Of a stretch of DNA of 64,000 nt, positions 6,949 through 26,018 are shown piece by piece. Below the pieces are notes generated by a model that saw only the letters and a list, made by a program, of their open reading frames with translations, ran no database searches and was not told where the DNA came from. A program made the position numbers and the translations under genes. How positions within the stretch are numbered: the stretch's first letter is position 1; each line of letters starts with the position of its first letter. Origin of the DNA: Achromobacter spanius (GTDB lineage Bacteria > Pseudomonadota > Gammaproteobacteria > Burkholderiales > Burkholderiaceae_B); NCBI RefSeq assembly GCF_002812705.1, contig NZ_CP025030.1:2108001-2172000 (forward strand). Direction: 5' to 3'.

Positions 6949-8178
6949 ATGAAGCCGGTTGTTGTTAAGAATTGCAAGATCTTGAATACCCGATCGTTGG
7001 CCCTGGAAGCCGCGGCGAATGTGTTGATCGAAGACGGAATGATCACTCGCATCAGCGCCGACGAGCTGACCGTGCCGGACGCCGAGGTGGTGGACGCCAA
7101 GGGCATGACGCTGATGCCGGGCATGATCGACTGCCACGTGCACGTGGTGGCGTCGTCGTTCAACCTGGGCCGCGTGGCGGCCTTGCCCAATGCCCTGGCG
7201 CTGTTGCGCGCACTGCCCATCATGCAGGGCATGCTGGACCGGGGCTTTACCAGCGTGCGTGATGCCGGCGGGGCCGATTGGGCCTTGGCGCAAGCCGTGC
7301 TGGACGGCGTGATCGACGGCCCGCGCCTCTTCTGCGCGGGCAAGGCCCTGTCGCAGACGGGCGGCCATGGCGACTTCCGCCAGCGCAACGATGAACTGGA
7401 CCCCTGCCCTTGCTCGGTCAAGATCGGCAATATCGGCCGCGTGGTGGATGGCGTGGACAACTGCCGTTTGGCGGTGCGCGAAGAAATCCTGAAGGGCGCG
7501 ACGCAGATCAAGGTCATGGCGTCCGGCGGCGTGGCCTCGCCGAATGATCCGATTCAGAACCTGGGGTTTTCCGAAGCCGAACTGCTGGCCATTGTGGAAG
7601 AGGCCAGCAACGCCAACACGTATGTGATGGCGCATGCCTACACGCCGCGCGCCATCATGCGCGCGGTGCGTTGTGGTGTTCGCACCATCGAACACGGCAA
7701 CCTGGTCGACCGCGAGGCCGCCGAGGTCATGAAAGAGCACGGCGCGTACATGGTGCCCACGCTGATCACCTACGAAGGGCTGGCCAACGACGGCGAACGC
7801 TATGGCCTGCCGCTGGACTCGGTGAAAAAGATTGCCACCGTGCGCACGCAAGGCCTGACGGCGCTTGAGATCCTGGACGACGTCGGCGTGAAGATGGGTT
7901 ACGGCAGCGACCTGCTGGGCGAAACCCACTACATGCAAGCCGACGAACTGACCCTGCGCGCCCGCGTGCTGGGCAACGCCAAGGTGATTCAGCAGGCGAC
8001 CTTGATCGGCGCCGAAATCCTGAACCAGCAAGGCTTGCTGGGCGAAGTGTGCGTAGGCGCGCATGCCGACCTGCTGCTGGTCGACGGCAACCCGCTGGAT
8101 GACATTTCCCTGCTGACCCAGCCCGACTCCATCAAGCTGATCATGAACCGCGGCTTGTTGCACAAGAACGCCTGCTGA
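6949..8178 (+). CDS. Metal-dependent amidohydrolase
   Basis: A 409-residue amidohydrolase-superfamily enzyme of the imidazolonepropionase/Xaa-Pro dipeptidase-like branch. It shows GMIDCHVHV (metal histidines), IKVMASGGVASP (lysine expected to be carboxylated), YVMAHAYTPRA, TIEHGNLVD and GYGSDLLGE (metal aspartate). Such enzymes cleave amide or peptide bonds of small N-acyl or cyclic substrates. The ATG has no visible ribosome-binding site and is preceded by an AT-rich run (ATTTATAT), so translation may be leaderless or weak. It is the first gene of an operon with an MFS carrier and a GAF protein, which suggests uptake and hydrolysis of one compound. The substrate is unknown. Confidence 0.85.
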   Translation: MKPVVVKNCKILNTRSLALEAAANVLIEDGMITRISADELTVPDAEVVDAKGMTLMPGMIDCHVHVVASSFNLGRVAALPNALALLRALPIMQGMLDRGFTSVRDAGGADWALAQAVLDGVIDGPRLFCAGKALSQTGGHGDFRQRNDELDPCPCSVKIGNIGRVVDGVDNCRLAVREEILKGATQIKVMASGGVASPNDPIQNLGFSEAELLAIVEEASNANTYVMAHAYTPRAIMRAVRCGVRTIEHGNLVDREAAEVMKEHGAYMVPTLITYEGLANDGERYGLPLDSVKKIATVRTQGLTALEILDDVGVKMGYGSDLLGETHYMQADELTLRARVLGNAKVIQQATLIGAEILNQQGLLGEVCVGAHADLLLVDGNPLDDISLLTQPDSIKLIMNRGLLHKNAC

Positions 8179-8212
8179 CGTTCTTTCACTCTTACTTCCG
8201 GAAATCTTCATC

Positions 8213-9565
8213 ATGTATTCCGTATCGGACCGCCTGGAGCGGCTACCGTTTTCCAGCTTCCATTTCCGCTTGCTGATGATCGGCGGCCTGGGCCTGGCGT
8301 TTGAAGCGCTGGACGCCGGCATCATCGCGTTCATCATCCCGTCGTTGCGCACGCAATGGGGCCTGTCCACCGGCGAGATCGGCTGGATCGCCAGCAGCAC
8401 CTACGTGGGCTTCCTGGTGGGCGCGCTGTTCTCGGGCATTCTGGGCGACCGCTACGGCCGCAAGAAGATCATGATGTGGGCCTTGCTGCTGTTCTGCGTG
8501 GCCACGTTCTTCAACGCCTTCGCTCGCAACTATCACGAGTTCTACATCCTGCGCATGATCGCGGGCATCGGCATGGGCGCGGAAGGCGCCATCATTGCGC
8601 CGTATCTGGCGGAATTCGTCAGCAGCAAATACCGTGGCCGCTTTACGGGCGCGCTGGCGGGCTTCTTCTCGTTCGGCTTTGTGATGTCGGCGTTGCTGGG
8701 GTACTTCATTGTGCCCATGAGCGACGACGGCTGGCGCTGGATCATGATCATCGCCTCGGTGCCGGTGGTGTTCCTGCTGTGGTGGCGCAAGTCGCTGTTC
8801 GAATCGCCGCGTTGGCTGGAGCACACTGGTCAAACCGCCGAAGCCGACCGCATCTGCTCGGCCATTGAAGCCGAAGTGGAGCAGAAGCTGGGCCGTCCCT
8901 TGCCCAAGCCCGTTGCCACGCGCCGTGCCGCCACCGCCGCGGAAAACCCGCAAAGCGCGATGGAAAAGCTGACGTCCCTGTTCTCGAAAACCTATCTGGG
9001 CACCACGGTGCTGGTGTGGGTGTTCTGGATCACCGTGCTGTTCTGCTACTACGCCTTCCTGGTGTGGATTCCCAGCCTGCTGGTCGAGCGCGGCTTCACC
9101 ATTACCAAGAGCTTTTCGTACACCATCCTGATCTACCTGTCGCAGATTCCCGGCTATTTCTCCGCCGCGTATTTCAACGACAAGATCGGCCGCAAGTACA
9201 CGATTCTGGCGTACATGCTGTTGTCGTGCCTGTCGGCGCTGGGCCTGGCGCTGGCCAGCGGCGAGCAGCAGATCATCATGCTGAGCATGCTGCTGTCGTT
9301 CGGCATGAACGGCGTGATTGCCGGCCAGTACACCTACACCGCCGAGATCTACCCGACCTCGATCCGGGCAACCGGCATGGGCGCGGCATCGGCCTTTGCG
9401 CGAATTGGGTCGATTGCATCGCCCACCATTGTGGGCGTGGCGTATCCGGTGCTGGGCTTTGCCGGCGTGTTCGCCATGATGACGGCCATCTTGATGGTGG
9501 GCGGGCTGGGAATTCTGTTCTTCGGCAAGAACACGCGCGGCGTGGTACTTGAGGCGATTCACTGA
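8213..9565 (+). CDS. MFS transporter
   Basis: A 450-residue carrier with twelve predicted membrane segments. GDRYGRKKIMMW after helix 2 is the major-facilitator signature, and NDKIGRKYT is its second-half counterpart. EIYPTSIRATGMG is typical of the metabolite:H+ symporter branch that includes niacin and aromatic-acid carriers. It sits 34 bp after the amidohydrolase gene and overlaps the GAF gene, so it probably imports the substrate or product of that pathway. Confidence 0.9.
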   Translation: MYSVSDRLERLPFSSFHFRLLMIGGLGLAFEALDAGIIAFIIPSLRTQWGLSTGEIGWIASSTYVGFLVGALFSGILGDRYGRKKIMMWALLLFCVATFFNAFARNYHEFYILRMIAGIGMGAEGAIIAPYLAEFVSSKYRGRFTGALAGFFSFGFVMSALLGYFIVPMSDDGWRWIMIIASVPVVFLLWWRKSLFESPRWLEHTGQTAEADRICSAIEAEVEQKLGRPLPKPVATRRAATAAENPQSAMEKLTSLFSKTYLGTTVLVWVFWITVLFCYYAFLVWIPSLLVERGFTITKSFSYTILIYLSQIPGYFSAAYFNDKIGRKYTILAYMLLSCLSALGLALASGEQQIIMLSMLLSFGMNGVIAGQYTYTAEIYPTSIRATGMGAASAFARIGSIASPTIVGVAYPVLGFAGVFAMMTAILMVGGLGILFFGKNTRGVVLEAIH

Positions 9566-10110
9566 TGACGCAAGCATCCACGTTGGCGCCCTGGGCGGCG
9601 CATGCGCGCGCCTTGGCGCAAGCCGGTGACCGCGCCGCGCAATGGCAGGTGGTATCGGCCTTGCTGGAAGAAGCCTTCGGGCACCAGCTATTCACCGCCT
9701 TGCTGTATCTGGAAGAACATCGGCTGATGAAACGGCTGTACACCTCCGATGAAAGCATCAGCCCGCTGGGCGGCTTCAAGGCCACGGGCAACGGGCCGTG
9801 GTCGCGCCATGTGCTGGAACAAGGTCAGTTGTACGTGGCCAGCAACGAGGACGATGTGCGCTCGGTGTTTTCCGAAGCGTCCATGCTGATCGAGCGCGGC
9901 CTGCATTCCGCGTTCAATATTCCGGTGCGCTATCAGGGCCGGGTGATCGGTTCGCTGAACCTGCTGGCCGGCCGCAAGGCGTATGACCATGCTGATCGGG
10001 ATCTGGCTGCGCTGATCTCTGGATTGTGCGCGCCGGTCTTCATCGAGGAAATGCAGGCCGCGCAAGCGGCGGCGGCAGCGGTGGACCGGGCGGGGCTGGA
10101 TAGCGTCTAG
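9565..10110 (+). CDS. GAF-domain protein
   Basis: A 181-residue protein that is essentially one GAF domain (about residues 20-165), with LERGLHSAFNIPV-like core text (IERGLHSAFNIPVRYQG) and the terminal strand GSLNLLAGRKAYDHAD. The start overlaps the MFS stop in an ATGA-type junction (one base shared), so translation is coupled. There is no DNA-binding or enzymatic partner domain. Similar stand-alone GAF proteins occur in catabolic operons without a settled role. It may be a small-molecule sensor or binding protein. Confidence 0.8.
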   Translation: MTQASTLAPWAAHARALAQAGDRAAQWQVVSALLEEAFGHQLFTALLYLEEHRLMKRLYTSDESISPLGGFKATGNGPWSRHVLEQGQLYVASNEDDVRSVFSEASMLIERGLHSAFNIPVRYQGRVIGSLNLLAGRKAYDHADRDLAALISGLCAPVFIEEMQAAQAAAAAVDRAGLDSV

Positions 10111-10195: not shown

Positions 10196-12550
10196 TCAGG
10201 TCGCGAGCACGGCGCGTACGGCTTCCGGCGTGAAGGGCGCTTCATAGAAGCGCTTGCCGGTGGCGTCGAACAGGGCGTTGGCGATGGCGGCGGGGCCGGG
10301 CACGGATGCGGATTCCCCCGCGCCCATGGGCGGCTCGTCTTGGCGCGGCATCAGCAAGACGTCAATGGCAGGCACATCCTTGAAGCCGATGATGGGGTAG
10401 CCACCCCATTCGCGGCTGGCGACACCCGCTTCATCAAAGACCACCTTTTCCAGCAGGCAGCGGCTGAGCGTCTGGATGACGTTGCCGTGAATCTGGTGGC
10501 GCACGCCGTCCGGGTTGACGATCATGCCGGTGTCCTGGCCAACCACTATCCGTTCCACGCGCACACGCCCCGTGGCCGGGTCCACGCACAGGTCGATGAC
10601 CCAGGCGGCCCAGGCGGCCCCAAAGCCAGGAAACTTGCTGTGCACATAGCGTGCGTAGGCGAGGCCGCGACCGTGCAAGCGGCCATCGGCATCCGGCTTG
10701 CCACGGCTGCCGCGCGTACCTGCGCGCCACTGCGCTCGCGCGGCCGTGGCTTCTATCAATGCGATGGCGCGTGCATCGTCCAGGTTGCGCACGCGATAGT
10801 CGACCGGGTCGGCGCCCGCGGCCTCGGCCAGTTCGTCGATCATGCAGTCATGCGCGAAGGAATTGGGCAAGGCCGACACACCGCGCAACCACGACGAGCG
10901 CACCAGCGGCGGCATGTCGTGGCAGACCACGCGGCGGCTTTTGTAGCGGTAGGGCGGCGCGGCGGTGCGATCGCCCATTTCCAGTGTGCGCGGCTCGCCG
11001 GAGACGGTGCCCGTCAATAACAGCGCCAAAAGCGGCGCATCGTTGGACGGGTAGCGCACGGCGAAGTCCACCGCCAGCAGCTCGCCTTGCGGGTCGATGG
11101 CGGCGGCCACGTCCATCAACTGCCCGGTGCCCTTGGGTTCCCATTGGTGTTCTTGTTCGCGCGTGAGCTGCACGCGCACGGGCGCGCCCACGGCCATGGA
11201 CAGCAGGGCGGCGTCGGCGCAGACGTCGTCCGCGCAATTGCGGCCATAGCAGCCGGCGGCTTCCAGACGGACCAGGTCGATCTGGCCTTCGCCCAGGTTC
11301 AGCAGCCGGTCCAGATCGGTGCGCAGCATGTGCGGGTTCTGCGTGCCGGTCCACACGGTGAGCCGGCCGTCAGAAAAGTCGGCCACGGCGCAAGAGGGGC
11401 CTATGGACGCATGCATCTGGTAGGGCCAGACGTAGCTGCGGCGCAAGTGCGTGGCGGCCTGCGCGCAGGCGGCGTCCACATCGCCTTCTTCGATCAGGGG
11501 CCGGGCTTGGGCGGGGTTGGCGCGGATGGCGGTGGCCAGATCGTCGAGTTGGGGGGCGGGCGGTACGGGCTTCCAGCGCACCTTCAGCGCACGCATGGCG
11601 GCAATGGCCTGTTCTTCACGGTCGGCCACCACGCCAACGAAGTCGCCTTGCACCACTACCTGCACGTTGCCGGGCAGATGCGCGACGGATTGGCGGTCCA
11701 CGTCGATCAGGCAATGGCCGATGAAGCTGCCGGCGTCGCGGCCCGGATGCGGCGGGCGCACCACGCGGCCGTGGCGCATGCCGGGCACGCGCACGTCATG
11801 CACAAAGCTGAGTTCGCCGGTGGCTTTGGCGGGGATGTCCACGCGCGCCACGCCTTGGCCGACGATGCGGTATGCGCTGGCGGGTTTCAACGGAACGGCT
11901 TGGTCTGGCGGCGCCAGGGTTAGCCGGATGTGCTGGCCGGCCAGCAACTGGCCGTAATGCAGTTGGCGTGCGTCATCGTCGGGGGTGGGCTGCGCAGCAA
12001 GCTGGGGCCCAGGCCGCATTTCAGGCTGCACCTCGGAACGCGTGATGGGCCGCACCACGCCATCGCGCACTTGCACCGCATCACGTGGCAGGTTCCATTG
12101 CCGCGCCGCCAGCATCAGCAAATGCTCACGTGCCTGCGCGGCGGCGCGGCGCAAGGGCACGGCGGAGATCTGGATGCTGGCGCTGGCGATGGTCGGGCCC
12201 TGATTGGGCGCGGCGCTGGTATGACCCAGCACCATGTCCAGGCGCGACAGCGGCACGTCCAGCTCTTCGGCAACGATCTGCGCCAGCGACGTGCGGATGC
12301 CCGTGCCCAGGTCCACGTGGCCGTTGAAGGCCAGCACGCGCCAGCCGGGCGATGGCGTGTCGCCCGCCACCAGGCCGGCGTCGCGCACGATGGCGATGAA
12401 GATCTCGGGCGTGGCCTGCACGTAATCCGACGCGCTGCCCGGCTGACCCGGCGCCGGCTTGGGCGGCGCCGAGGGCTCGCGCACCACGAGCAGGGCGTCG
12501 GGGTGAGCGAGCAGCGCGTCAGGCAGGTGGTGGGGCGGGGGCAGGGGCAT
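10196..12550 (-). CDS. Molybdopterin-binding dehydrogenase subunit, probable catalytic part of nicotinate dehydrogenase
   Basis: A 784-residue protein of the IorB/NicB (xanthine dehydrogenase) family. It contains NGHVDLGTGIRTSLAQIVAEELD near residue 72-95, the domain-2 start RIVGQGVARVDIPAKATGE, HASIGPSCAVADF, ADAALLSMAVGAPVRVQLTR, and the active-site glutamate loop MGAGESASVPGPAAIANAL near residue 742. The molybdenum subunit is therefore complete, but it has no cytochrome c domain. It is the last gene of the nicE-D-X-F operon, 41 bp after nicF. NicB encoded at 18135 lacks these catalytic elements, so this protein very likely supplies the Mo site for NicA/NicB. An unrelated dehydrogenase role is possible but less likely. 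Confidence 0.8.
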   Translation of the reverse strand: MPLPPPHHLPDALLAHPDALLVVREPSAPPKPAPGQPGSASDYVQATPEIFIAIVRDAGLVAGDTPSPGWRVLAFNGHVDLGTGIRTSLAQIVAEELDVPLSRLDMVLGHTSAAPNQGPTIASASIQISAVPLRRAAAQAREHLLMLAARQWNLPRDAVQVRDGVVRPITRSEVQPEMRPGPQLAAQPTPDDDARQLHYGQLLAGQHIRLTLAPPDQAVPLKPASAYRIVGQGVARVDIPAKATGELSFVHDVRVPGMRHGRVVRPPHPGRDAGSFIGHCLIDVDRQSVAHLPGNVQVVVQGDFVGVVADREEQAIAAMRALKVRWKPVPPAPQLDDLATAIRANPAQARPLIEEGDVDAACAQAATHLRRSYVWPYQMHASIGPSCAVADFSDGRLTVWTGTQNPHMLRTDLDRLLNLGEGQIDLVRLEAAGCYGRNCADDVCADAALLSMAVGAPVRVQLTREQEHQWEPKGTGQLMDVAAAIDPQGELLAVDFAVRYPSNDAPLLALLLTGTVSGEPRTLEMGDRTAAPPYRYKSRRVVCHDMPPLVRSSWLRGVSALPNSFAHDCMIDELAEAAGADPVDYRVRNLDDARAIALIEATAARAQWRAGTRGSRGKPDADGRLHGRGLAYARYVHSKFPGFGAAWAAWVIDLCVDPATGRVRVERIVVGQDTGMIVNPDGVRHQIHGNVIQTLSRCLLEKVVFDEAGVASREWGGYPIIGFKDVPAIDVLLMPRQDEPPMGAGESASVPGPAAIANALFDATGKRFYEAPFTPEAVRAVLAT

Positions 12551-12591
12551 GACAGGAGCAGGGTTCGGACCGGTGGGTGATTATGTCGCCG

Positions 12592-13278
12592 TTAGCGGGC
12601 GGCCGGCAGTGGGGCATCCACCAAGGCGCGGGTCTCGGCCAGCGCATGGTCCAAGGGCATGACGGCGGCGTACTTCTGCGCCATGTCGAACAGGTTGGCG
12701 TCGTGCGGACCCAGGGCGCGGTCGCCGCAGCAGTCGGCTACCACCAAGGGCCGAAAACCTGCCTGCATGGCGTCCACCACGCTGGCGCGCACGCAGCCGC
12801 TGGTGACGCAGCCCGCCACCAGCAAGGTCTGCACGCCGCGCTGTGCCAACCAGGGCGCCAGCATGGTGCCGAAGAAGGCGGACGGGGTGCTCTTGCGCAC
12901 CACGTATTCGCCGGGCGCGGGGGCCAGTTCGGGCACGATGGCGCTGTTGTGGCTGTGCTCTTTCAGGGCCAGCATGGCGGGCACCTTCAGGCAGAAGATA
13001 TTGCTGTCGGCATCGTCGTCCGAGAACACGATGCGGCTGTGCGCCACCGGCCATCCCTGGGCGCGCGCGTGGGCCAGCAAGTGGCGCGTTTGCGCGATGG
13101 CTTCCGGGATGTTGCCGCCGCCCAGCACGGCGGGGTCGGCAAAGCCGTTCACGAAGTCCACGATCAACAAGCCAAAGGGCGCTTTGAGCGGCAACGGCGT
13201 GCCGAAGCCCTGGCGCGAATACGCGGAGATATCGCCCGTGACGGCGTCGGTGGGTATGGTTTGGGTCGAGGCGTTCAT
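12592..13278 (-). CDS. nicF: Maleamate amidohydrolase NicF
   Basis: A 228-residue isochorismatase-like hydrolase that converts maleamate to maleate and ammonia in the nicotinate pathway. The triad is visible: Asp in LLIVDFVNGF, Lys in VVRKSTPSAF, and the nucleophile Cys in LLVAGCVTSGCVRAS. The ATG at 13278 overlaps the nicX stop by four bases (ATGA), showing coupled translation. A longer frame exists but its extra N-terminus is inside nicX. Confidence 0.93.
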   Translation of the reverse strand: MNASTQTIPTDAVTGDISAYSRQGFGTPLPLKAPFGLLIVDFVNGFADPAVLGGGNIPEAIAQTRHLLAHARAQGWPVAHSRIVFSDDDADSNIFCLKVPAMLALKEHSHNSAIVPELAPAPGEYVVRKSTPSAFFGTMLAPWLAQRGVQTLLVAGCVTSGCVRASVVDAMQAGFRPLVVADCCGDRALGPHDANLFDMAQKYAAVMPLDHALAETRALVDAPLPAAR

Positions 13279-14348
13279 TTGCTGTCCTTGCGGCGGGCGG
13301 CGTGCGCCAGGCCGGATTCGTCTTGCACCACGCCGCGCGTCACGACCGCCTGGCCGTCCAGCGCCACGCTGCAATGGCGCATGGGGATGTCGATGTGGCA
13401 GGCGGTGGTGCGGCTGCCGCCCGCTTCATTGTTGGGGCCCATGGACCACAGGAAATTGCCCTCGAAGGCGCGCGCGTCCATGCCGATGTGCGCTTCCTTG
13501 TTGTAGTGCGCCAGCATCGACCACTGCGCGCGCGGTTGCAGGCCCCAGCCGATGTGCGACACCGCATAGGCTTCGGGGTCTTCGTACGCCGCCATGTATT
13601 CCTTCAGGATGTCGGCCTGCAAGCCGCCGTTGATGCGGGTGACGTAGCCGTTTTCAATGACCAGTTCGATGGGGTCGGTCACGTAGTCTTTCATGGGCAG
13701 CAGGATGTCTCCCCGGTCCAGCACCACACGGCCATTGCTGTGGCCTTCGTTGGGCCAGGTCAGCACGAAGCCGCTGGGCCAGTGGTCCCAGCGGCCGGGT
13801 TCGTCCACGAAACCGTATTCGGATATGGCGGGGAATTCGCCCAGTTCGCAGCGCAGATCGGTGCCGGCCGCCGACGTGATGTGCATTTGCTTGGACGCTT
13901 CAATCCGACGCGCGGCGGCCTGCACGCGCGCACGGTCCGCCTCGGTGGGCACCAGGCGGCACAGCACTTCGGGCGGCTCGATGGCCAGCAGGATCTTGGT
14001 GCCGGTCTGCAAGATCTCGTGCTGCTCGGGCGAGAACAGCAGCGTCATCAGGTCCAGCACCAGGTCGCTGGCATTCAGCGCGGCGATGGCGGCGGGGTTG
14101 CCCGTCAGCGGGGTGGCGCCCAGGTAGGCCAGCGCGTCGCGGCTGATGGATTTTTCGGCGTTGACGGGCGGCAGGTCCAGCCGGTTGACGCGCGCGCCGA
14201 GGTCAGTGGCGGCGGCGATCGCGCAGCGCAGTGTTTGCGGATGCGTGTCGGCCCCGGTCAACACGGTGACGATCTGCCCGGCTTCAAGTCGGGACAGCGT
14301 CAGCACCTGCTTCCAGGCGTGGATCAAATCGATATCGCTGACGGACAT
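13275..14348 (-). CDS. nicX: 2,5-dihydroxypyridine 5,6-dioxygenase NicX
   Basis: A 357-residue extradiol-type dioxygenase that opens 2,5-dihydroxypyridine to N-formylmaleamate using Fe(II) and O2. The likely iron ligands are the histidine in VSHIGWG and the His and Asp of ACHIDIPMRH, matching the described NicX active site. GTDLRCELGEFPA lies before them. AAGGAG precedes the ATG. Its size agrees with the Pseudomonas putida enzyme (about 350 residues). It lies between nicD and nicF. Confidence 0.95.
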   Translation of the reverse strand: MSVSDIDLIHAWKQVLTLSRLEAGQIVTVLTGADTHPQTLRCAIAAATDLGARVNRLDLPPVNAEKSISRDALAYLGATPLTGNPAAIAALNASDLVLDLMTLLFSPEQHEILQTGTKILLAIEPPEVLCRLVPTEADRARVQAAARRIEASKQMHITSAAGTDLRCELGEFPAISEYGFVDEPGRWDHWPSGFVLTWPNEGHSNGRVVLDRGDILLPMKDYVTDPIELVIENGYVTRINGGLQADILKEYMAAYEDPEAYAVSHIGWGLQPRAQWSMLAHYNKEAHIGMDARAFEGNFLWSMGPNNEAGGSRTTACHIDIPMRHCSVALDGQAVVTRGVVQDESGLAHAARRKDSK

Positions 14349-14387
14349 GGCGGGCTCCTTGAATCAGCGGATTGAGGAAAAGGCGTG

Positions 14388-15224
14388 TCAGTCGACCTTG
14401 CTGCCAAGGAAGTCGCCAAAGGCCGCGTAGAAGCCGGCTTCGTTGTCCCACGGAATCATGTGGCCCGCGCCGGGCACGCGCACGTGCTGCGTCTGCGGCG
14501 CCAGGCCCTGCCATTCGGCCACATCGTCGTCGCCCACGACGCCGCCTTTTTCGGCGGTCATCAACAGCAACGGAATCTTGATGGCGGGCAGGTCGGCATG
14601 GATGTCGTCGCGGCCAAAGTCTTCAAAGCTCTGCACGATGGCGGGTTCAAAGCAGGTGTGCAGCCATTGTGCGCGCAATTGGCGCTGGGCTTCGGTCCAG
14701 GTGGGGCAGAAGGCCAGCATGGCTTCGGCGGTCATGCCGTGCGTGGCTTGTCGGATGGAATCCACGTACCACGCCAGGTTGGCCGGGTAGGCGCGGCGGC
14801 CCGGGCCGGAGACGGGCGGGTCCACGATGACCAGACGCGCCAGGCCTTCAGGTTGGCTGCGCGCGGCGCGCACGGCGATGCGCCCGCCCATGGAATGGCC
14901 CACCAGCGCGTATTTCGACAACCCTAGCGCCTGCGCAAACGCCGTGACGTCGGCGGCTTGCGCGTCCAGCCCGTAGTCCAGCTCGGGGCCGGAAGCCGAC
15001 AAGCCCCGGCCGCGCACGTCCAGCACATAGGTGTCGAACTGGCGGCCCAGATGTTCGGCCACAAAGCCCCAGGTAACCGCGGGGCTGGTGATGCCGGGAA
15101 TCAAGATGACGGCGGGGCGGCCGGCGCGTTCGCCCGCCGTGCCGCCGTAGCGCAGGTAGTGCTGGCGGATGCCGTTGGCGTGCACGTGGCCGCCATAGAG
15201 GTAGGTGCTGGCGGCTTGGGTCAT
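14388..15224 (-). CDS. nicD: N-formylmaleamate deformylase NicD
   Basis: A 278-residue alpha/beta hydrolase. It shows ILIPGITSPAVTWGF (oxyanion region), YVLDVRGRGLS, the nucleophile elbow LVGHSMGGRIAVR, and the catalytic histidine in VRVPGAGHMIPWDN. It releases formate from N-formylmaleamate to give maleamate. The start shares four bases with the nicE stop, so the two are translationally coupled. Confidence 0.93.
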   Translation of the reverse strand: MTQAASTYLYGGHVHANGIRQHYLRYGGTAGERAGRPAVILIPGITSPAVTWGFVAEHLGRQFDTYVLDVRGRGLSASGPELDYGLDAQAADVTAFAQALGLSKYALVGHSMGGRIAVRAARSQPEGLARLVIVDPPVSGPGRRAYPANLAWYVDSIRQATHGMTAEAMLAFCPTWTEAQRQLRAQWLHTCFEPAIVQSFEDFGRDDIHADLPAIKIPLLLMTAEKGGVVGDDDVAEWQGLAPQTQHVRVPGAGHMIPWDNEAGFYAAFGDFLGSKVD

Positions 15225-15997
15225 TGTGCGTTCCTGGAATAGGGGTAAGCGCCCGAGAGCAGGGCGCCGGCGCCGGGTACCACCGGGTCCATGCCCAGTT
15301 CCTTCAGGATGGCGTAGGTGGTGGCGATGGAGGCAGTGAGCACGGGCTTGCCGGTTTCGGCTTCCACTTGCGAGACGGCGGGCAGCGACGGCATTTGCAC
15401 GCAGGCGGACAGCACGATCACATCGGCGTCGGCCACGTTCATGCCGGCGACGATGCCGGGCAGCTTGGCGGGGTCGTGGCGGCCCACGTCCAGGTTGTCG
15501 GGAATTTCCAGCGCGCGCCAGTCCACGATTTCAAACCCTTCGGCGGCGATGTAATCCATGACGAGTTCGGTCAGCGGAATCATGTAGGGCGCCACCAGCG
15601 CAATCTTCTTGGCGCCCATGACGTGCAACGCGTCGACCAGCGCGCCGGCGCTGGTGATGACGGGCGCCGACGCGCCGTTTTCAGCGGTGCGCTCGGTCAG
15701 GCGCTTTTGCGACACGCGGTGGTAGCCGCGCCCCATGGCCATGATGGCCACCAGGCAGGCGTAGCCCAGCACGTCGACGCGCGCATCGCTGAGTTCCAGC
15801 GCGCAGCGATCGCTTTCGGCGTCCATGGCGGCCAGCTCTTCCTTTTGCACCTTCTTCATGCGCATGCGGCTGGAATGGAAAGTAAAGCGGTCACTGGGGC
15901 GTAGCGAGGAGTGCGCCGTCAGCATGGCGGGCACTTCGGTTTCCATCGTGGTGTTGGAACTGGGAACGATCTGGCCGATTCGGAATGTCTTCGTCAT
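15221..15997 (-). CDS. nicE: Maleate cis-trans isomerase NicE
   Basis: A 258-residue member of the Asp/Glu racemase superfamily that converts maleate to fumarate, the last step before the TCA cycle. The two catalytic cysteines are in VLGYACLVAIMAMG and VLSACVQMPSLP. The start IGQIVPSSNTTMETE is typical of maleate isomerases. It is the first gene of the minus-strand operon and lies 271 bp from divergent nicC. Confidence 0.95.
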   Translation of the reverse strand: MTKTFRIGQIVPSSNTTMETEVPAMLTAHSSLRPSDRFTFHSSRMRMKKVQKEELAAMDAESDRCALELSDARVDVLGYACLVAIMAMGRGYHRVSQKRLTERTAENGASAPVITSAGALVDALHVMGAKKIALVAPYMIPLTELVMDYIAAEGFEIVDWRALEIPDNLDVGRHDPAKLPGIVAGMNVADADVIVLSACVQMPSLPAVSQVEAETGKPVLTASIATTYAILKELGMDPVVPGAGALLSGAYPYSRNAQ

Positions 15998-16048
15998 GGA
16001 GAAGCCTTGAAAAGGGGCGGGCCTAGGGTTTTCGATAAATTCAAAAGA

Positions 16049-16060
16049 AGCGTATACGCT
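16049..16060. promoter_or_regulatory. Candidate NicR operator 1 (nicE/nicC intergenic)
   Basis: AGCGTATACGCT is a perfect 12-bp palindrome 52 bp upstream of nicE. A related AGCGTGTACG is at 16201-16210 and a half-site TACGCT at 16165-16170. A MarR-type repressor such as NicR would bind this kind of palindrome between the divergent operons. The NicR consensus for this organism is not known to me. Confidence 0.4.
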
Positions 16061-16196
16061 CTATTCTTGCAAAGAGCGACGCAGATGACCAGCCCGGTTT
16101 CCGTAGTGGTTTTCACCTAATGTTGTGAAATCTATGCACTGTTTTGGTGGCGCGTCTTGGGGTTTACGCTTGGATCGAAAATTTCTGTGTCCATAA

Positions 16197-17426
<1,230 letters not shown>

Positions 17427-17520
17427 CGATCTGTCCGCCGCGCGGGCGTGGGGGCTTGCCCCTGGTCCCGTGTCGCGGCAACCTTCGTACTTCTCAAAAC
17501 CCGGACACGCGCCACACGCC

Positions 17521-18138
17521 ATGGGATCCACCGTCAATTCAAGCAGCACCCCGCCTCCGATCCGTCTGAGCGTGAACGGACGCGAGTGCGACGTGCCCGC
17601 GGCCCCCGACACGGCGCTGCTGCACGTGCTGCGCAATGACCTGGCGTTGAACGGCCCGAAGTACGGCTGTGGGTTGGGCGAATGTGGTGCATGCACGGTG
17701 TTGATCGACGGCGTGGCCGCGCGGTCTTGCGTCATTCCGGTGCGAGCAGCGCAAGGGCGCGCCGTGGTCACGCTGGAAGGACTGGGCACGCGCGAGCAGC
17801 CGGGTACGACACAGCAGGCTTTCATCGATTGCCAGGCCGCGCAGTGCGGCTATTGCCTGAACGGCATGATCATGACGGTGGAAGCCTTGTTGCGACGTAA
17901 CCCCGATCCTAGTGAAGACGCGCTGCGCAGCGAACTGCACCACAATCTGTGCCGCTGCGGCACGCACGTGGAGATCATGCAGGCGGCGTTGCGAGCGGTG
18001 CGCTTGCGGGCGGAGGCGGCTGATGTGCGCGGCTCGCAAGCTGCGGGTGGGGGCGGTGCTGCGGGTGTTGCGGGTGTTGCAGGTGTTCCGGATGTTCCAG
18101 GCGTTGCGGGTGTTGCCGACGGTGGATCCACGCGATGA
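17521..18138 (+). CDS. nicA: Nicotinate dehydrogenase small iron-sulfur subunit NicA
   Basis: A 205-residue two-[2Fe-2S] subunit. The plant-type cluster is bound by the cysteines of KYGCGLGECGACTVLIDG and RSC, and the second cluster by QCGYCLNGM and NLCRCGTHVEI. It passes electrons from the molybdenum centre to the haems of NicB. The ATG at 17521 matches the usual N-terminus. The C-terminal 30 residues are an unusual Gly-Val-Ala/Pro run (GVAGVAGVPDVPGVAGVAD) encoded by 9-bp repeats and absent from typical NicA proteins as far as I know. The stop overlaps nicB by four bases. Confidence 0.93.
   Translation: MGSTVNSSSTPPPIRLSVNGRECDVPAAPDTALLHVLRNDLALNGPKYGCGLGECGACTVLIDGVAARSCVIPVRAAQGRAVVTLEGLGTREQPGTTQQAFIDCQAAQCGYCLNGMIMTVEALLRRNPDPSEDALRSELHHNLCRCGTHVEIMQAALRAVRLRAEAADVRGSQAAGGGGAAGVAGVAGVPDVPGVAGVADGGSTR
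18058..18117. repeat. 9-bp repeat tract inside the 3' end of nicA
   Basis: About six degenerate copies of GCGGGTGTT/GCAGGTGTT/CCGGATGTT encode the Gly-Val-Ala/Pro tail. Because each unit is three codons, copy-number change keeps the reading frame. Confidence 0.8.
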
Positions 18139-21100
18139 GTTCGGACACCTTGGCGTCGCCGCACCATCACGCGGGTTTGCCCGCCGCCTTGCCCGCCGAC
18201 TTGCTGCACGGCGTGGTGTTGCGCCCGCCCAGCGTGCTGTGGGATGGCGCGCGGTATCGCGGCAGTGTCTTGCAGCACGCGCAGTTGGAGCAGGCACGAT
18301 CGCTGGCCGGCGTGGTGATGGCGGTGCAGCGCACGCACTTTGCCGGTGTGGTGGCGGTGTCGCCGGTTCACGCGCGGGAAGCGGCCGTGGCCTTGGCGCC
18401 CGTGTGGCAAGCCTCGGATTCCGTTCAAACCCCGCGCGCGGATGCGGCCGACCCCGACCAGATTCGTTATGGCATGCGCCTGCCATCGTCCGAGGCGCGT
18501 GCCGGCGCACGGGCGACGGCATGGGTGTTGAACGGACACGCCAGCGTGTGGCTGCCGGCATGTACGCCCGCCACGCAAGCACAGGTGCGCCGCGAACTGG
18601 CGGCGCTGCTGCAACAAGCGGAAGACACGATCAGTATCTCGGCGGATGGCGCGGTCGACGGCGCGGCCTTCGAGGGCCGGGACGCGGTGCATCCGCTGGA
18701 CTTGATGGACGCCGCCGCCGACGCCGCGCTGCTGTCGCAAGCCGTGGGCCGGCCGGTATGCGTGGCTTGCCAGTCGGGTGTTGCCGATGAGTTGGTGTTG
18801 CGTGTGCCGGTGACTGATGGTGAGTCCGCGTCCGTTGCTTTTGACGCCGTTGCATCTAATGCCTTTGCTTCGAACGCCGCTGCCTCGAACGCTGCTCTCT
18901 CCAGCGCCTCTACCTTGACGCCGCAACCTGCATCGGTTGCCGATGGTCGCGTTGCGTCGTTGCTGTCCGACGCACCCTGGGCAGTGCGCCCCAGCCTGGC
19001 GCGGCTGTTGAGCCAACCCGGGCAGGCAAGTGCGTCGGCGCATGCGACGGTATGCGGCGCGTCGGTAACGTCGTCCCGACGCGCGCTACCGCCGTTGCGC
19101 GCAAGTGTCGATGAGTTGAACGCCGCGCAAGTCTTCGCGCAAGAAAGCCAGTGGCACGAAGCCGCGCTGGCCCAAGATAAAGATCCCATCGCGTGGCGCT
19201 TGGAACATTTGCCGGAAGGGAAAGGCCGAGACCTGGCGCGCCAAGTCATTGACCGTGCAACGTCACGCGCCGACGACGCCCCTGCGCCGCGCGTAGGCCT
19301 GCTGCATGGCACCGGCTTTGCCACCGCACAGGTGCAATGCGTGGATGACGACGGCGCCGCCCGCATGGTGTGGAGCGCCTGGGTGGCCGAGGTATCGGTG
19401 CAACCCCAGACCGGCCATGTCGACGTCACGCGCGTGGTCGCGGGGCACGACAGCCAGCATCTACAAGCGGCGCAGGCGGCGTCCATGCAGGCCGAGATCG
19501 AACAACAGACCCCGTGGCTGCTGGCCAACGCACGCCGTCTGCTGGCGGGGCCGCCGGCCTTTGACGATTGGACGAGTCCATCGCAACAGGCTGGCTCCGA
19601 CGCCGCAGTCGCATTGCGCCGCTATGAAAGCGGTGATGGCTTGGTACAGCACGACGCGACGGCTAACGCGCTGGACGGCGTAGTGAAGCAAGGGCAGTTG
19701 GCCGTGGACGGCGTGGTCACCTTGCCCGCTGCCGCCGCCATTGCCAACGCCATCCACAACGCAACCGGCGTGCGCCTGCGGCAAGCACCGTTCGACATAG
19801 AATCCTTGCGCCTGGCCTTGGCGGACCAGCGCCCGGCGCGTGCTCGCGGCCTGTTGGGGCGCGGATGGGTATGGTTGGCGGCCGGGATGGCAGGGCTTGC
19901 CGGCGTCGCCGCCGCGCTCTGGCCGCTGAAGCCCGCGATGCCGCTTACGGCAGGCCCAGACGTTTCCCTGTATTCCATGCGCGCCATCGAACGCGGCCGC
20001 CTTGTCGCCGCCGCGGGCGATTGCATCGCCTGCCACACCGCGCCAGGAGGCAAGGCCAACGCGGGCGGGCTGGCGCTGGACACCCCCTTCGGCACGATCT
20101 ATTCCACCAACATCACGCCCGACAACGACACCGGCATCGGCCGCTGGTCTTATCCCGCATTCGAACGCGCCATGCGTCAGGGCGTGCACCAGGACGGCCG
20201 CCAGCTCTATCCCGCGTTTCCCTACACGGCCTATGCCAAGCTGAGCGACGCGGACATGCAGGCGCTGTATGGCTACCTGATGTCGCAGCCCGCCGTGAAG
20301 TCCGAGCCGCCGAAAACGCAGTTGGCCTTCCCGTTCAATATGCGTCCCCTCTTGGCGGGCTGGAATGCGCTGTTTCACGACGCCACGCCCTTCACGCCGG
20401 ACCCGTCGCGCAGCGCGCAGTGGTTGCGCGGTGCCTATCTGGTGGAAGGCGTCGGCCACTGCGCCGCCTGCCACTCGCCACGCAACCGCCTGGGCGCGGA
20501 GAAGAAGGGCGTGCATTACCTGGCCGGCGGCGAAGCCGAGGGCTGGACCGCGCCCGCCCTGAATCAACTGGCTAGCGGCCCGCGTGCCTGGACGGGCGAT
20601 GAGCTCTTCCAGTATCTGCGCACCGGCTATTCACCGAGCCACGGCGTGGCGGCCGGGCCGATGGCGCCCGTGATCCATGGATTGGCTGAATTGCCCGACA
20701 GCGACGTGAAGGCCATCACGACATACTTGCTGGATTTGCCGAAGCCGAAGGGCGAGCCCGCTGCGGCGCCTGTGGCACCGGGATCCTCTTCTCCAGCAGC
20801 TTCGCCCTCGTCATCGCCTTCGCCTTCGCCGTCGCCGTCGCCCTCATCGCCGTCTTCGCTATCGCCTGCCGCCGCGACCACGACCGCGCCCGCGCCCGCA
20901 CCCGCCGCCGCGACGATCCAATCCCTTCAAGGCCGACGCGCCAACGGCGAACGCATCTATCAGAACGCCTGCGCGGTCTGTCACGAAGCGGGCAGCGGGC
21001 CCACGCTGTTTGGCGCCAAGCCATTGCTAAGCGCCAACACCAACCTGCATGCCGCCACGCCGGACAACCTGATCCAGGTGATCCTGCACGGCATCCAGGA

Positions 21101-21272
21101 GCCCGCCGATGACGCGCTGGGCTACATGCCGGGCTTCAAAGACAGCCTGGACGACAGGCAGGTCGCCGATCTGCTGGGTTATTTGCGGGAACGTTTTGCG
21201 CCGGACGAAGACGCCTGGCCCGATCCCACCACGACGATTAAACGGCTACGCAACCATGCGGAGCTGAATTAA
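18135..21272 (+). CDS. nicB: NicB-type cytochrome subunit with decayed molybdopterin domain
   Basis: A 1045-residue protein. Residues 20-560 resemble the C-terminal two thirds of the NicB/IorB molybdopterin domain (LHGVVLRPPSVLWDG, DAALLSQAVGRPVCVACQS, AAAIANAIHNATGVRLRQAPF) but with large losses. The N-terminal Mo-domain start is absent, and the catalytic GAGES loop has become GQLAVDGVV, without the glutamate. A membrane anchor (GWVWLAAGMAGLAGVAAALW, about 575-594) follows. Three c-type haem sites come next: CIACH (about 630), CAACH (775) and CAVCH (945), with a Ser/Pro-rich linker before the third. It most likely passes electrons to the respiratory chain, with catalysis on the protein encoded at 10196-12550. 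Confidence 0.85.
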   Translation: MSSDTLASPHHHAGLPAALPADLLHGVVLRPPSVLWDGARYRGSVLQHAQLEQARSLAGVVMAVQRTHFAGVVAVSPVHAREAAVALAPVWQASDSVQTPRADAADPDQIRYGMRLPSSEARAGARATAWVLNGHASVWLPACTPATQAQVRRELAALLQQAEDTISISADGAVDGAAFEGRDAVHPLDLMDAAADAALLSQAVGRPVCVACQSGVADELVLRVPVTDGESASVAFDAVASNAFASNAAASNAALSSASTLTPQPASVADGRVASLLSDAPWAVRPSLARLLSQPGQASASAHATVCGASVTSSRRALPPLRASVDELNAAQVFAQESQWHEAALAQDKDPIAWRLEHLPEGKGRDLARQVIDRATSRADDAPAPRVGLLHGTGFATAQVQCVDDDGAARMVWSAWVAEVSVQPQTGHVDVTRVVAGHDSQHLQAAQAASMQAEIEQQTPWLLANARRLLAGPPAFDDWTSPSQQAGSDAAVALRRYESGDGLVQHDATANALDGVVKQGQLAVDGVVTLPAAAAIANAIHNATGVRLRQAPFDIESLRLALADQRPARARGLLGRGWVWLAAGMAGLAGVAAALWPLKPAMPLTAGPDVSLYSMRAIERGRLVAAAGDCIACHTAPGGKANAGGLALDTPFGTIYSTNITPDNDTGIGRWSYPAFERAMRQGVHQDGRQLYPAFPYTAYAKLSDADMQALYGYLMSQPAVKSEPPKTQLAFPFNMRPLLAGWNALFHDATPFTPDPSRSAQWLRGAYLVEGVGHCAACHSPRNRLGAEKKGVHYLAGGEAEGWTAPALNQLASGPRAWTGDELFQYLRTGYSPSHGVAAGPMAPVIHGLAELPDSDVKAITTYLLDLPKPKGEPAAAPVAPGSSSPAASPSSSPSPSPSPSPSSPSSLSPAAATTTAPAPAPAAATIQSLQGRRANGERIYQNACAVCHEAGSGPTLFGAKPLLSANTNLHAATPDNLIQVILHGIQEPADDALGYMPGFKDSLDDRQVADLLGYLRERFAPDEDAWPDPTTTIKRLRNHAELN

Positions 21273-21331: not shown

Positions 21332-22648
21332 ATGTCAGCTTCATTGGTTTCCGTGGACAAAGCCATTCAGGTGGCGGGCGTCGGCAAGTTTCAATATCGG
21401 CTATTCGTGATATTCGGCCTGGTCTGGATGGCCGACGCCATGCAGGTGCTGTCCATCGGCTTTTCCGCGCCGTCCATTGCAAAGACCTTCGGCATCACCG
21501 TGCCGCAAGCGCTGCAAACGGGCACGCTCTTCTTCATCGGCATGCTGATCGGCGCCTTCATGTTCGGCCGCATGGCCGACCGTATCGGGCGCCGCCCGGT
21601 GTTGATGATCGCGGTGGTCATCGACGCCTGCGCGGGCGTGGCCTCGGCCTTCGCGCCTGAGTTCACGTGGTTGCTGTTCCTGCGCTTCCTGACGGGCATC
21701 GGCGTGGGCGGCACGCTGCCGGTGGACTACACGATGATGGCCGAGTTCCTGCCCAGCGCCCGCCGTGGCCGCTGGCTGGTGCTGCTGGAATCGTTCTGGG
21801 CCGTGGGCACCATCTTTCTGGCGCTGCTGGCCTTGGCGGCCGTGTCCTGGGGCGACGACGCCTGGCGCGTGATCTTCTTCGTCACCGGCCTGCCCGCCTT
21901 GATTGGTGTGGTCTTGCGCTTCTACATCCCTGAATCGCCGATGTACTTGAACCGCAACGGCAAATCAGACCAGGCGCGCAAGGTGCTGGAACGGGTGGCG
22001 CGCGTGAACCGCCGCGACGTCGAAGTGCCCGCGCTGCAACCGGAAACGCCTGTCCATAAATCCATCTTCGCCTTGTTCTCGTCCAGCTACCGCCGCCGCA
22101 GCATCGGGCTGTTGCTGGCGTGGGCGCTGATCTCCATTGCGTACTACGGCGTGTTCGTCTATCTGCCCATCAAGCTCAGCACCGCCGGCTTCGCCTTCAT
22201 GCGCGGCCAGGAATTCCTGGTGCTGTTGGCGCTGGTGCAGTTGCCGGGCTTTGCGCTGTCGGCCTATGGCGTGGAACGCTGGGGCCGCAAGCCCACGCTG
22301 ATCGGCTTTTTGATCTTGAGCGCCGTCGGCTGCATGCTCTACAGCCTGGGCACCGCACCCGCCGTGGTGATCGGTTCCACCTTGCTGATGAGCTTCTCGC
22401 TGCTGGGCACGTGGGGCGCGCTGTATGCCTTCACGCCCGAGGTCTACCCGACAGACCTGCGCGCCAGCGGCATGGGCATGGCGGGGGCCGTGGCGCGTTT
22501 TGGTGGGCTGTTCGCACCGGCCATCATCGCGCCCATCATGACCAGCCACTTCACGCTGTCGCTGGTGGTGCTGTCCAGCATGCTGCTGGCGGGTGCGGTA
22601 GCGATTGCGTCAGTGGACGTGGAATCGCGTAACCGCGCGCTGGATTGA
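21332..22648 (+). CDS. nicT: MFS transporter NicT-like (pyridine carboxylate uptake)
   Basis: A 438-residue, twelve-helix carrier. GRMADRIGRRPVLM after helix 2 and EVYPTDLRASGMGMAG in the second half place it in the metabolite:H+ symporter branch with NiaP and NicT. It begins 59 bp after nicB on the same strand and ends facing nicR. The place in the operon supports import of nicotinate or 6-hydroxynicotinate; the exact substrate is inferred. Confidence 0.85.
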   Translation: MSASLVSVDKAIQVAGVGKFQYRLFVIFGLVWMADAMQVLSIGFSAPSIAKTFGITVPQALQTGTLFFIGMLIGAFMFGRMADRIGRRPVLMIAVVIDACAGVASAFAPEFTWLLFLRFLTGIGVGGTLPVDYTMMAEFLPSARRGRWLVLLESFWAVGTIFLALLALAAVSWGDDAWRVIFFVTGLPALIGVVLRFYIPESPMYLNRNGKSDQARKVLERVARVNRRDVEVPALQPETPVHKSIFALFSSSYRRRSIGLLLAWALISIAYYGVFVYLPIKLSTAGFAFMRGQEFLVLLALVQLPGFALSAYGVERWGRKPTLIGFLILSAVGCMLYSLGTAPAVVIGSTLLMSFSLLGTWGALYAFTPEVYPTDLRASGMGMAGAVARFGGLFAPAIIAPIMTSHFTLSLVVLSSMLLAGAVAIASVDVESRNRALD

Positions 22649-22719: not shown

Positions 22720-23187
22720 TCAGACCTGTTCGTCGCCGTTCAGCATTTTGGTCAGCAGAAAATCCAGCGCCAGGCGCTCGGCCGGGTTCAGATTGCCGTA
22801 GGTGCTTTCGGTGATTTGCTTGGCAAACGGTTCCATTTCTTGCACCAGCCCCTGCCCCACGGGCGTCAGGCTCACCACCACCTTGCGCCGGTCGACGGGG
22901 TCGTGGTCCACCTGCACCAACTCACGCTGCTTCAAGCGATCCACCACGCCGCGCACGGTAGCCTGGTCTATGACAGTTGCCTTGACCAGATCAGCCAGCG
23001 AACTCGCGCCATGGTCCCGCACCGAACACAGCACGACAAACTGCGCTGCGGTGAGCTGGGAGTCGGGAATGTAATGCTGAAACAGCGCGGTGTGCCGCTG
23101 ATAGACACGCCGCAGCAGGTGACCTATCTGATCAGAAAACAAATAGCCTTCCGTGTTGGACGAGGACTTGCCTTTCATATTGCGCAT
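22720..23187 (-). CDS. nicR: MarR-family repressor NicR (BpsR-like)
   Basis: A 155-residue winged-helix protein with the MarR wing DHDPVDRRKVVVSLTPVGQ and recognition-helix region ATVIDQATVRGVVDRLKQR. NicR of Pseudomonas and BpsR of Bordetella repress nic genes and respond to 6-hydroxynicotinate (literature knowledge). The gene is convergent with nicT, 72 bp apart, and is probably the repressor of both nic operons. Confidence 0.88.
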   Translation of the reverse strand: MRNMKGKSSSNTEGYLFSDQIGHLLRRVYQRHTALFQHYIPDSQLTAAQFVVLCSVRDHGASSLADLVKATVIDQATVRGVVDRLKQRELVQVDHDPVDRRKVVVSLTPVGQGLVQEMEPFAKQITESTYGNLNPAERLALDFLLTKMLNGDEQV

Positions 23188-24897: not shown

Positions 24898-25158
24898 ATG
24901 AAGAAACGATTCACGGAAGAACAAATCATCGGCGTGCTCAAGGAGGCCGATGCGGGTGCCAAGCCCGCAGAACTGTGCCGCAAGCACGGTATCTCCGAGG
25001 CAACGTACTACAACTGGAAGGCGAAGTTCGGTGGCATGACGGTGTCGGACGCTCAGCGGCTCAAGGAGCTGGAGCAGGAGAACAACAGGCTCAAGAAGCT
25101 GTTGGCCGAGTCGATGCTGGACAAGGCGGCGCTTCAGGATCTGCTAAGCCGAAAGTAG
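24898..25158 (+). CDS. IS transposase OrfA
   Basis: An 86-residue protein with the helix-turn-helix start MKKRFTEEQIIGVLKEAD and ELCRKHGISEATYYNWKAKF, followed by a leucine-zipper-like helix (LKELEQENNRLKKLLAES). This is typical of IS407-group OrfA. AAAGGA precedes ATG 24898; an ATG two codons upstream is an alternative. Confidence 0.92.
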   Translation: MKKRFTEEQIIGVLKEADAGAKPAELCRKHGISEATYYNWKAKFGGMTVSDAQRLKELEQENNRLKKLLAESMLDKAALQDLLSRK

Positions 25159-26018
25159 TCAGCCCGCAGGCCAAGCGCGAGGCGGTCAGGACATTGATGG
25201 CCGAGCGCAGCATGGGTGTTACCCGGGCCTGCGGGCTGGTAGGAATTTCGCGGTCGTTGTTTGCCTACGGGAGCACGCGCATAGGCGATGCTGCTCTGAC
25301 CGAGCGCATGAAAGAGATGGCAGTGGCCAAACGACGCTATGGCTATCGGAGAATCCATGTGCTCTTACGTCGCGAAGGCTGGCAAGCAAATCACAAGCGA
25401 GTCTGGCGGCTGTACAGCCTGGCAGGGTTGAGCGTGCGCAAACGCAAGCGTAAGCGCATCGCGGCGACCGAGCGCGTGGTTCGCCCAGCGGCAACCGCGC
25501 CGAATCAAAGTTGGTCGATGGACTTTGTGGCCGACGGCCTAGCCTATGGCCGCCGGTTCCGTTGTTTGAATATCGTCGATGACTACACTCGCGAATGCCT
25601 GGCCATCGAGGTCGATACGTCGTTGCCGGGAGTGCGTGTTGCCACGGTGCTGCAACGGCTAGCTGAAATGCGTGGCCTGCCGCGATCTATTACTGTGGAC
25701 AACGGTCCGGAATTCGCCGGAAGAGCCTTGGATGCCTGGGCCTACCAAGCTGGCGTAAAGCTGTCGTTTATCCGGCCGGGTAAACCGGTGGAGAACGCTT
25801 ATATCGAAAGTTTCAACGGCAAGTTCCGCGACGAATGCCTTAACGAGCACTGGTTCTTGTCCCTGCGACAGGCCAAAGACTTGATCGAAAACTGGCGGGT
25901 CGAGTACAACACCGATCGGCCCCACAGTGCGCTCGGATATTTAACCCCGGCGCAATTCGTGCAGGCTCATCAGAAAGAAGGTCTTTTACCCCTGGACTCT
26001 ATGTCGGTGCCGTACTAA
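25149..26018 (+). CDS. IS transposase OrfB (DDE), made by -1 frameshift from OrfA
   Basis: An integrase-core transposase of about 290 codons in the -1 frame relative to orfA. The DDE residues are in NQSWSMDFVADGL (first D), ITVDNGPEFAG (second D) and ENAYIESFNGKFRDECLNEHW (E). HTH_21-like text RYGYRRIHVLLRREGW precedes them. The shift probably occurs in the CCGAAAG stretch at 25149-25155 just before the orfA stop. The stop TAA lies at the inner edge of the right inverted repeat. It appears intact. Confidence 0.9.
   Translation, partial: PKVVSPQAKREAVRTLMAERSMGVTRACGLVGISRSLFAYGSTRIGDAALTERMKEMAVAKRRYGYRRIHVLLRREGWQANHKRVWRLYSLAGLSVRKRKRKRIAATERVVRPAATAPNQSWSMDFVADGLAYGRRFRCLNIVDDYTRECLAIEVDTSLPGVRVATVLQRLAEMRGLPRSITVDNGPEFAGRALDAWAYQAGVKLSFIRPGKPVENAYIESFNGKFRDECLNEHWFLSLRQAKDLIENWRVEYNTDRPHSALGYLTPAQFVQAHQKEGLLPLDSMSVPY

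Follow-up and report, generated by a model that had tools for sequence, protein, structure and literature searches.

Which chain of the nicotinate dehydrogenase encoded in Achromobacter spanius carries the molybdenum (Mo) active site, and why does a second chain keep a Mo-like domain that has lost its motifs? The question is raised by two divergent gene rows, nicE-D-X-F-B1 on the minus strand and nicC-A-B2 with a transporter gene on the plus strand, and a MarR gene beyond the transporter. They lie in a stretch of 64,000 nt (the window; GCF_002812705.1, NZ_CP025030.1 2,108,001-2,172,000), of which 10196..21272 was studied. The genome (G000) consists of a single 6.43 Mb contig, and its close named homologues are from Achromobacter. 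An initial annotation had proposed that the active site moved to a separate chain, leaving on the cytochrome chain only fragments of a Mo domain that now act in docking or as a scaffold. Its coordinates, lengths and quoted motifs for both proteins were correct. The main features are as follows.

10196..12550, minus strand: nicB1, 784 residues, catalytic molybdopterin subunit without CxxCH
10310..10324, minus strand: GAGES catalytic loop of NicB1, residues 743-747
12437..12448, minus strand: GQPG motif of NicB1, residues 35-38
17521..18138, plus strand: nicA, with Fer2 and Fer2_2 domains, overlapping the nicB2 start
18135..21272, plus strand: nicB2, 1045 residues, with pseudo-Mo domain, anchor and three-haem cytochrome
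18135..19829, plus strand: pseudo-Mo domain of NicB2, residues 1-565
18807..18959, plus strand: linker within the pseudo-domain, residues 225-275, fast-evolving and of low model confidence
19692..19718, plus strand: GQLAVDGVV, standing where the GxGES loop has been lost
19863..19922, plus strand: hydrophobic anchor, about residues 577-596, basic on its N side
19926..21272, plus strand: three-haem cytochrome c part of NicB2, nearest solved relative 8gy3_A

NicB1 was found to be a full Mo domain without haem, as had been proposed. It matches the Pfam families MoCoBD_1 (2e-30) and MoCoBD_2 (1.2e-35), contains no CxxCH, and has the catalytic Glu of the xanthine-oxidase type in MGAGESASVPGPAA (residues 742-755). 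Among solved structures it comes closest to 8gy3_C, which is the Mo chain of an aldehyde dehydrogenase from Gluconobacter. A different full NicB elsewhere in the genome, named by the initial annotation as the finding that would speak against it, was looked for by homology search of the 6.43 Mb and none was found. The next Mo-type matches to NicB1, NicB2 aside, reached 29-31% identity (749-residue frame, 5.52 Mb). NicA has the two [2Fe-2S] domains of a NicAB-type nicotinate dehydrogenase. Its tail (18028-18138) is repetitive and rich in Gly, Ala and Val, and runs into the nicB2 start.

NicB2 starts in the middle of the domain, with LHGVVLRPP aligning to about residue 256 of NicB1. It lacks both the GxGE loop and the N-terminal cofactor block of a xanthine oxidase family catalytic chain, and GQLAVDGVV stands at the place of GAGES. 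At an E-value of 0.001, Pfam returned two cytochrome c families and nothing else; MoCoBD_2 appeared at E 0.022, short of its cut-off. Of 22 NicB2 relatives, 18 match this family at E 0.1 or better. Three CxxCH motifs (CIACH, CAACH and CAVCH) mark a three-haem cytochrome c, and two 45% identical paralogues of this part lie at 1.70 and 4.60 Mb of the same genome. The anchor assignment leans on position too, as one stretch inside the relic, beginning at residue 522, has a slightly higher hydrophobicity. The P. putida NicB chain has about 1190 residues. NicB2 is not of that type, with an intact Mo domain and cytochrome in one chain.

The description of the Mo-like part as fragments was right about the lost motifs and too severe about the rest: the pseudo-domain is a domain-length stretch with variable linkers, and the core of the Mo fold is still present in its predicted model. 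Among solved structures, the two parts of NicB2 are matched best by Mo chain C and cytochrome chain A of 8gy3. A Foldseek search with the NicB2 model placed the 8gy3 cytochrome at the top and gave low template modelling (TM) scores, and the Mo-fold comparison of the relic, made with a VIA alignment, is a second look at the same low-TM matches. Chance and a sequencing or assembly fault were ruled out by family size: the N-terminal part matches at least 317 proteins, and Achromobacter, Bordetella, Delftia, Comamonas and Acidovorax are among the sources of the best 120.

The motif losses were then followed through three layouts: split (NicB1 and NicB2), fused (one NicB chain) and cleanly split (a Mo chain and a short cytochrome chain). 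A joint alignment held 55 NicB1, 55 NicB2, 20 fused, 10 cleanly split and 4 outgroup proteins. Both chains were present for 54 loci; L169 gave only NicB1 and L024 only NicB2. L120 and L156 are not among the split rows, L156 being counted as cleanly split. GxGES was found in 55/55 NicB1, 20/20 fused and 10/10 cleanly split proteins, and in 0/55 NicB2. It was also absent as such from the outgroup (0/4), all of which have the Glu but a different residue after it. Q404, G433 and R556 (NicB1 numbering) are invariant in NicB1, fused and cleanly split proteins. In NicB2, G433 is kept in 6/55, and at the sites of Q404 and R556 the NicB1 residue does not rank in the four most frequent letters. G436 is retained in 28/55 NicB2, and none of the 55 has the LGTG block, which aligns to a gap. 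The cofactor and catalytic motifs thus lie on NicB1 in every row and on NicB2 in none, and this part of the initial annotation stands.

A second motif, GQPG, lies N-terminal to the LGTG block and was found in 60/60 split NicB1, 0/20 fused and 0/10 cleanly split proteins. The 60 comprise the 55 with a NicB2 locus at hand or window, together with contig-edge loci; the NicB1-only loci L058, L061, L065 and L098 are within the 60 and outside the 55 of the alignment. Among NicB1 database relatives of unknown layout, 119/120 have it. If the split brought a new contact with it, the GQPG segment of NicB1 would be its best candidate.

Descent of NicB1 and NicB2 from different Mo families was considered and ruled out, as both fall inside the nicotinate group versus the outgroups (99/99). 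On 474 shared columns, mean identity was 61% for NicB1 and fused NicB, 30% for NicB1 and NicB2, 33% for NicB1 and outgroup, and 23% for NicB2 and outgroup. In the Mo trees, NicB2 forms one clade (89/95; 96/99 in a later tree) and so does split NicB1 (96/98 without the cleanly split L156; 93/98 in the later tree), and the internal order of the two clades is broadly similar. An approximately unbiased (AU) test of the relic's nearest relative retained both NicB1+NicB2 (p 0.164) and fused+NicB2 (p 0.547). The nicB2 gene lies directly behind nicA, as does fused nicB in Roseomonas, Rhizobium and Shinella records. Most likely, NicB2 descended from a fused NicB whose gene lay directly behind nicA. Once a second Mo copy lacking the cytochrome (NicB1) was available, the Mo part of NicB2 would have lost its first ~255 residues with the catalytic and cofactor loops, and would have been retained as a folded pseudoenzyme. 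Both the duplication and how many times decay occurred are inferred here. The evidence supports the separate chain as the catalytic one; rather than the active site having moved, a second Mo copy probably took over and the copy behind nicA decayed.

Selection on the pseudo-domain was estimated in six comparisons within the genus. The ratio of nonsynonymous to synonymous substitution rates (dN/dS) was 0.21-0.28 over residues 1-562, compared to 0.08-0.15 for NicB1 and 0.03-0.13 for the cytochrome part. Synonymous distances of the pseudo-domain exceeded 1 in 3/6 comparisons. The linker at residues 225-275 gave 0.3-1.5, with wide intervals, in the five pairs that could be estimated. Constraint on the pseudo-domain is relaxed but real. 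The N-terminal part of NicB2 is thus not a pseudogene by broken frame or neutral evolution, as its frames are open and its dN/dS is 0.21-0.28.

Taken together, we consider it fairly probable that the locus encodes a three-chain nicotinate dehydrogenase in which NicB1 provides the sole Mo site and NicB2 has kept a dead Mo domain, most likely as a docking platform. By homology and operon context, NicB1 and the two [2Fe-2S] domains of NicA would convert nicotinate to 6-hydroxynicotinate. Electrons would then pass to the three-haem cytochrome of NicB2, as domain order and 8gy3 suggest. The relic would most likely hold NicA-NicB1 at the membrane beside the cytochrome, perhaps replacing a second Mo protomer. 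The proposal of a docking or scaffold remnant fits the purifying selection, the retained modelled fold and the confinement of GQPG to split NicB1; the contact between the chains would be the conjectural part of it.

A more specific form of this model is offered only tentatively. Tethered to the membrane as a pseudoenzyme, the relic may pair with live NicB1 via GQPG into an unequal heterodimer, in place of a Mo-Mo homodimer, and may thereby position the cytoplasmic clusters for transmembrane electron transfer to the cytochrome. A filter for twin-arginine translocation (Tat) leaders was passed by 0/20 fused NicB and 0/60 split NicB1. Since there is no Tat leader and the anchor is basic on its N side, the Mo part is expected in the cytoplasm and the haems in the periplasm. 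With a Mo part and haems predicted on opposite sides, the electron path across the membrane is a puzzle for split and fused NicB alike. Judging from its leader, the cleanly split form would sidestep this by exporting the Mo chain.

Several observations weigh against a docking role with a single origin. The NicB2 model is weak overall (predicted local distance difference test (pLDDT) 56.6; predicted TM-score (pTM) 0.41). As split NicB1 is one clade, the agreement of GQPG with the split counts as a single event, and one of the 120 database relatives, P0234, is without the motif. This protein has an N-terminal part with a Tat-type leader and a remainder close to NicB1, suggesting a recombinant or an assembly chimera. 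NicB2 rows are long-branched in the Mo tree, and their grouping may be helped by long branches. In the cytochrome tree, made without L006 (too few columns), NicB2 is not one clade: alphaproteobacterial fused NicB stands with Burkholderiales NicB2 (84/84), NicB2 of the f173 type stands apart from the latter, and a single NicB2 clade appeared in 4% of bootstrap trees. No starred branch forbids a single NicB2 origin. The conflict with the Mo tree, which concerns the cytochrome parts L153-L178, could reflect two NicB2 origins or exchange of the cytochrome part. Pairwise distances of NicB1 and NicB2 correlated at r 0.89, no better than NicB1 and cytochrome at 0.91, in the first alignment, where the NicB2 rows L044 and L048 ended at an early CxxCH; the mirror-tree signal was set aside as contact evidence, being no better than shared descent. 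Across 52 loci (1326 pairs), the pseudo-domain distance was 3.4x that of NicB1, and the cytochrome distance 1.3x. Caballeronia NicB2 frames measure 815-972 residues in 6/7 loci and 1060 in the seventh, and the cleanly split relatives have no pseudo-domain at all.

These last points, the roughly threefold faster evolution, the shorter NicB2 in most Caballeronia loci and the relatives that do without the domain, fit slow loss too. Together with a linker near neutrality in some comparisons, they are what would be expected if the NicB2 N-domain were a passive relic, slowly being lost, of which only the folded mass before the anchor matters. We regard this as unlikely, since dN/dS was well below 1 in 6/6 comparisons, the domain was lost in 0/55 aligned split NicB2 and the fold is kept in the predicted model. 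Another explanation is that the relic is an assembly factor for inserting the Mo cofactor or the clusters and not a holder of the finished complex. In its favour, a Mo-like fold that lacks cofactor motifs might imitate a partner, and the gene for the live chain lies in the other row. The relic is, however, covalently joined to the cytochrome chain, which suits a permanent role, and we regard this explanation as quite improbable. That NicB1 acts on another substrate while NicB2 still oxidises nicotinate, as the position of nicB1 outside the nicA-nicB2 row might suggest, is hardly credible given the loss of GxGES and the N-terminal LGTG block from 55/55 NicB2, the mean identity of NicB1 to the Mo part of fused NicB and the lack of another NicB found in the genome.

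The split is not peculiar to this strain; Cupriavidus necator (locus L068), for example, has it too. Among the best 80 of at least 412 named NicX candidates, a scripted count gave 38 split loci, 4 with NicB1 only (short or cut contigs), 0 fused and 38 with neither gene above thresholds, the last group consisting of NicX in other settings or of cut loci (L071, for example). Frame lengths in this count run stop to stop and overstate protein lengths. By this measure, the 815-residue NicB2 frame of Caballeronia arvi (L106) is the shortest complete one among relic-keeping split loci. In the window's genus, NicB1 was found in 23/43 genomes, and 19 of 20 loci have an open NicB2 frame, the other being cut at a contig end; some of the 20 share species with the NicX-anchored loci. 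Beyond Burkholderiales, the split occurs in at least three families that belong to a different order within the class (f173, f190 and f223). In f173, NicB1 (58-63% identity) was found in 33/201 genomes, and by a count from the table 32 of the 33 also list a NicB2-type frame. The remaining locus, L169 (genome G407), has a NicB2 frame of 775 residues with two CxxCH. Split loci were also read in f190 and f223. In a sample of the class, NicX matches came from 9/369 genomes, including the window's own, and nicB was present in 1 of 10 loci from the other 8. In the family of G213 (36 genomes), only Mo proteins of 30-36% identity were found, in 10 genomes.

The remaining genes of the locus are listed below. 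Names are based on family matches and the Delftia order, and for nicX also on an annotated Azospirillum relative.

12592..13278, minus strand: nicF, isochorismatase-fold hydrolase (Pfam), named from synteny with the Delftia order; the longest open reading frame starts at TTG 13374, the likely start is ATG 13278
13275..14348, minus strand: nicX, 54% identical to an Azospirillum record annotated as 2,5-dihydroxypyridine 5,6-dioxygenase; no Pfam match in the family search
14388..15224, minus strand: nicD, alpha/beta hydrolase (Pfam), named from Delftia synteny
15221..15997, minus strand: nicE, Amdase (arylmalonate decarboxylase) family (Pfam), named from Delftia synteny
15998..16268: intergenic gap of 271 bases between the divergent rows
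16269..17426, plus strand: nicC, FAD-dependent monooxygenase (Pfam), named from Delftia synteny
21332..22648, plus strand: major facilitator superfamily (MFS) transporter at the nicT position, named from Delftia synteny
22720..23187, minus strand: MarR-family regulator at the position of the Delftia marR gene

Facing nicB1 on the plus strand, at 6949-10110, is a row of an amidohydrolase, an MFS transporter and a GAF-domain protein. About 1.8 kb past the MarR gene, at 24975-26018, is a transposase frame with rve and HTH_21, IS3-like by reading.

Nicotinate is vitamin B3, and the NicA/NicB1/NicB2 enzyme would start its breakdown. Nature offers this enzyme in three layouts (fused, cleanly split, and split with the dead domain retained), so what a pseudoenzyme domain does within a redox complex can be tested directly. 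NicB2 alone should not count as proof of nicotinate oxidation, because some records are named nicotinate dehydrogenase subunit B although they lack the active-site motifs.

Among known systems, the fused form is represented by the P. putida enzyme, given as NicA and NicB in the excerpted text of PMC10269826. Our comparison set consists of other fused NicB records. They come from plasmids of Azospirillum, Roseomonas, Rhizobium, Shinella and Methylobacterium, and from further genomes, three of them in the family survey. In genus g352 of family f162, 34/36 matching genomes have a frame of at least 1190 residues (own count), G1138 and G1180 being the two without; twelve long frames from the g352 survey were examined, and all have GxGES and at least three CxxCH. 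Fused NicB resembles the window's system in its Mo part (61% identical on average to NicB1), in a cytochrome of the same group and in its place beside nic genes in annotated records. In contrast to the window, it is one chain with an intact Mo domain and no GQPG. The cleanly split form was found in 10/25 genomes of genus g368 of f162 as a separate Mo chain with an adjoining short three-haem cytochrome chain (L156 and L229-L237, all 10 read). It shares with the window the separate Mo and cytochrome chains and differs in that their genes are neighbours, in the Tat-type leader on the Mo chain and in the absence of GQPG. By eye the leader is present in 9/10, the tenth frame starting inside the protein, and 4/10 pass a strict Tat filter. 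The membrane-bound aldehyde dehydrogenase of Gluconobacter oxydans (8gy3) likewise pairs Mo chain C with three-haem cytochrome chain A. Its cytochrome chain (444 residues) has no Mo-like domain and covers only the cytochrome part of NicB2, and its named substrate is different.

The closest known system is that of Delftia acidovorans Cs1-4, with the same genes in the same order as the window in the excerpted PMC4572682: marR, nicT, nicB2, nicA, nicC, nicE, nicD, nicX, nicF and nicB1. The excerpts of PMC10269826 call the hydroxylase of Burkholderia gladioli and Bordetella tripartite, and the names NicA/NicB1/NicB2 were in print in 2015 and 2023 (PMC4572682, PMC10269826). The excerpt of PMC6837509 attributes the first step to the products of nicA and nicB and names BpsR as a repressor of nicC and nicE. 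The excerpts of these three papers make no mention of a dead Mo domain on NicB2, nor did a literature search of titles and abstracts, whose coverage did not include Jimenez 2008 and Brickman 2018. The window, with separate Mo and cytochrome chains in a nic cluster of the Delftia order, belongs to this tripartite type. As a three-part arrangement it is already known; the dead domain, conserved and accompanied by a sequence correlate, makes it a variant.

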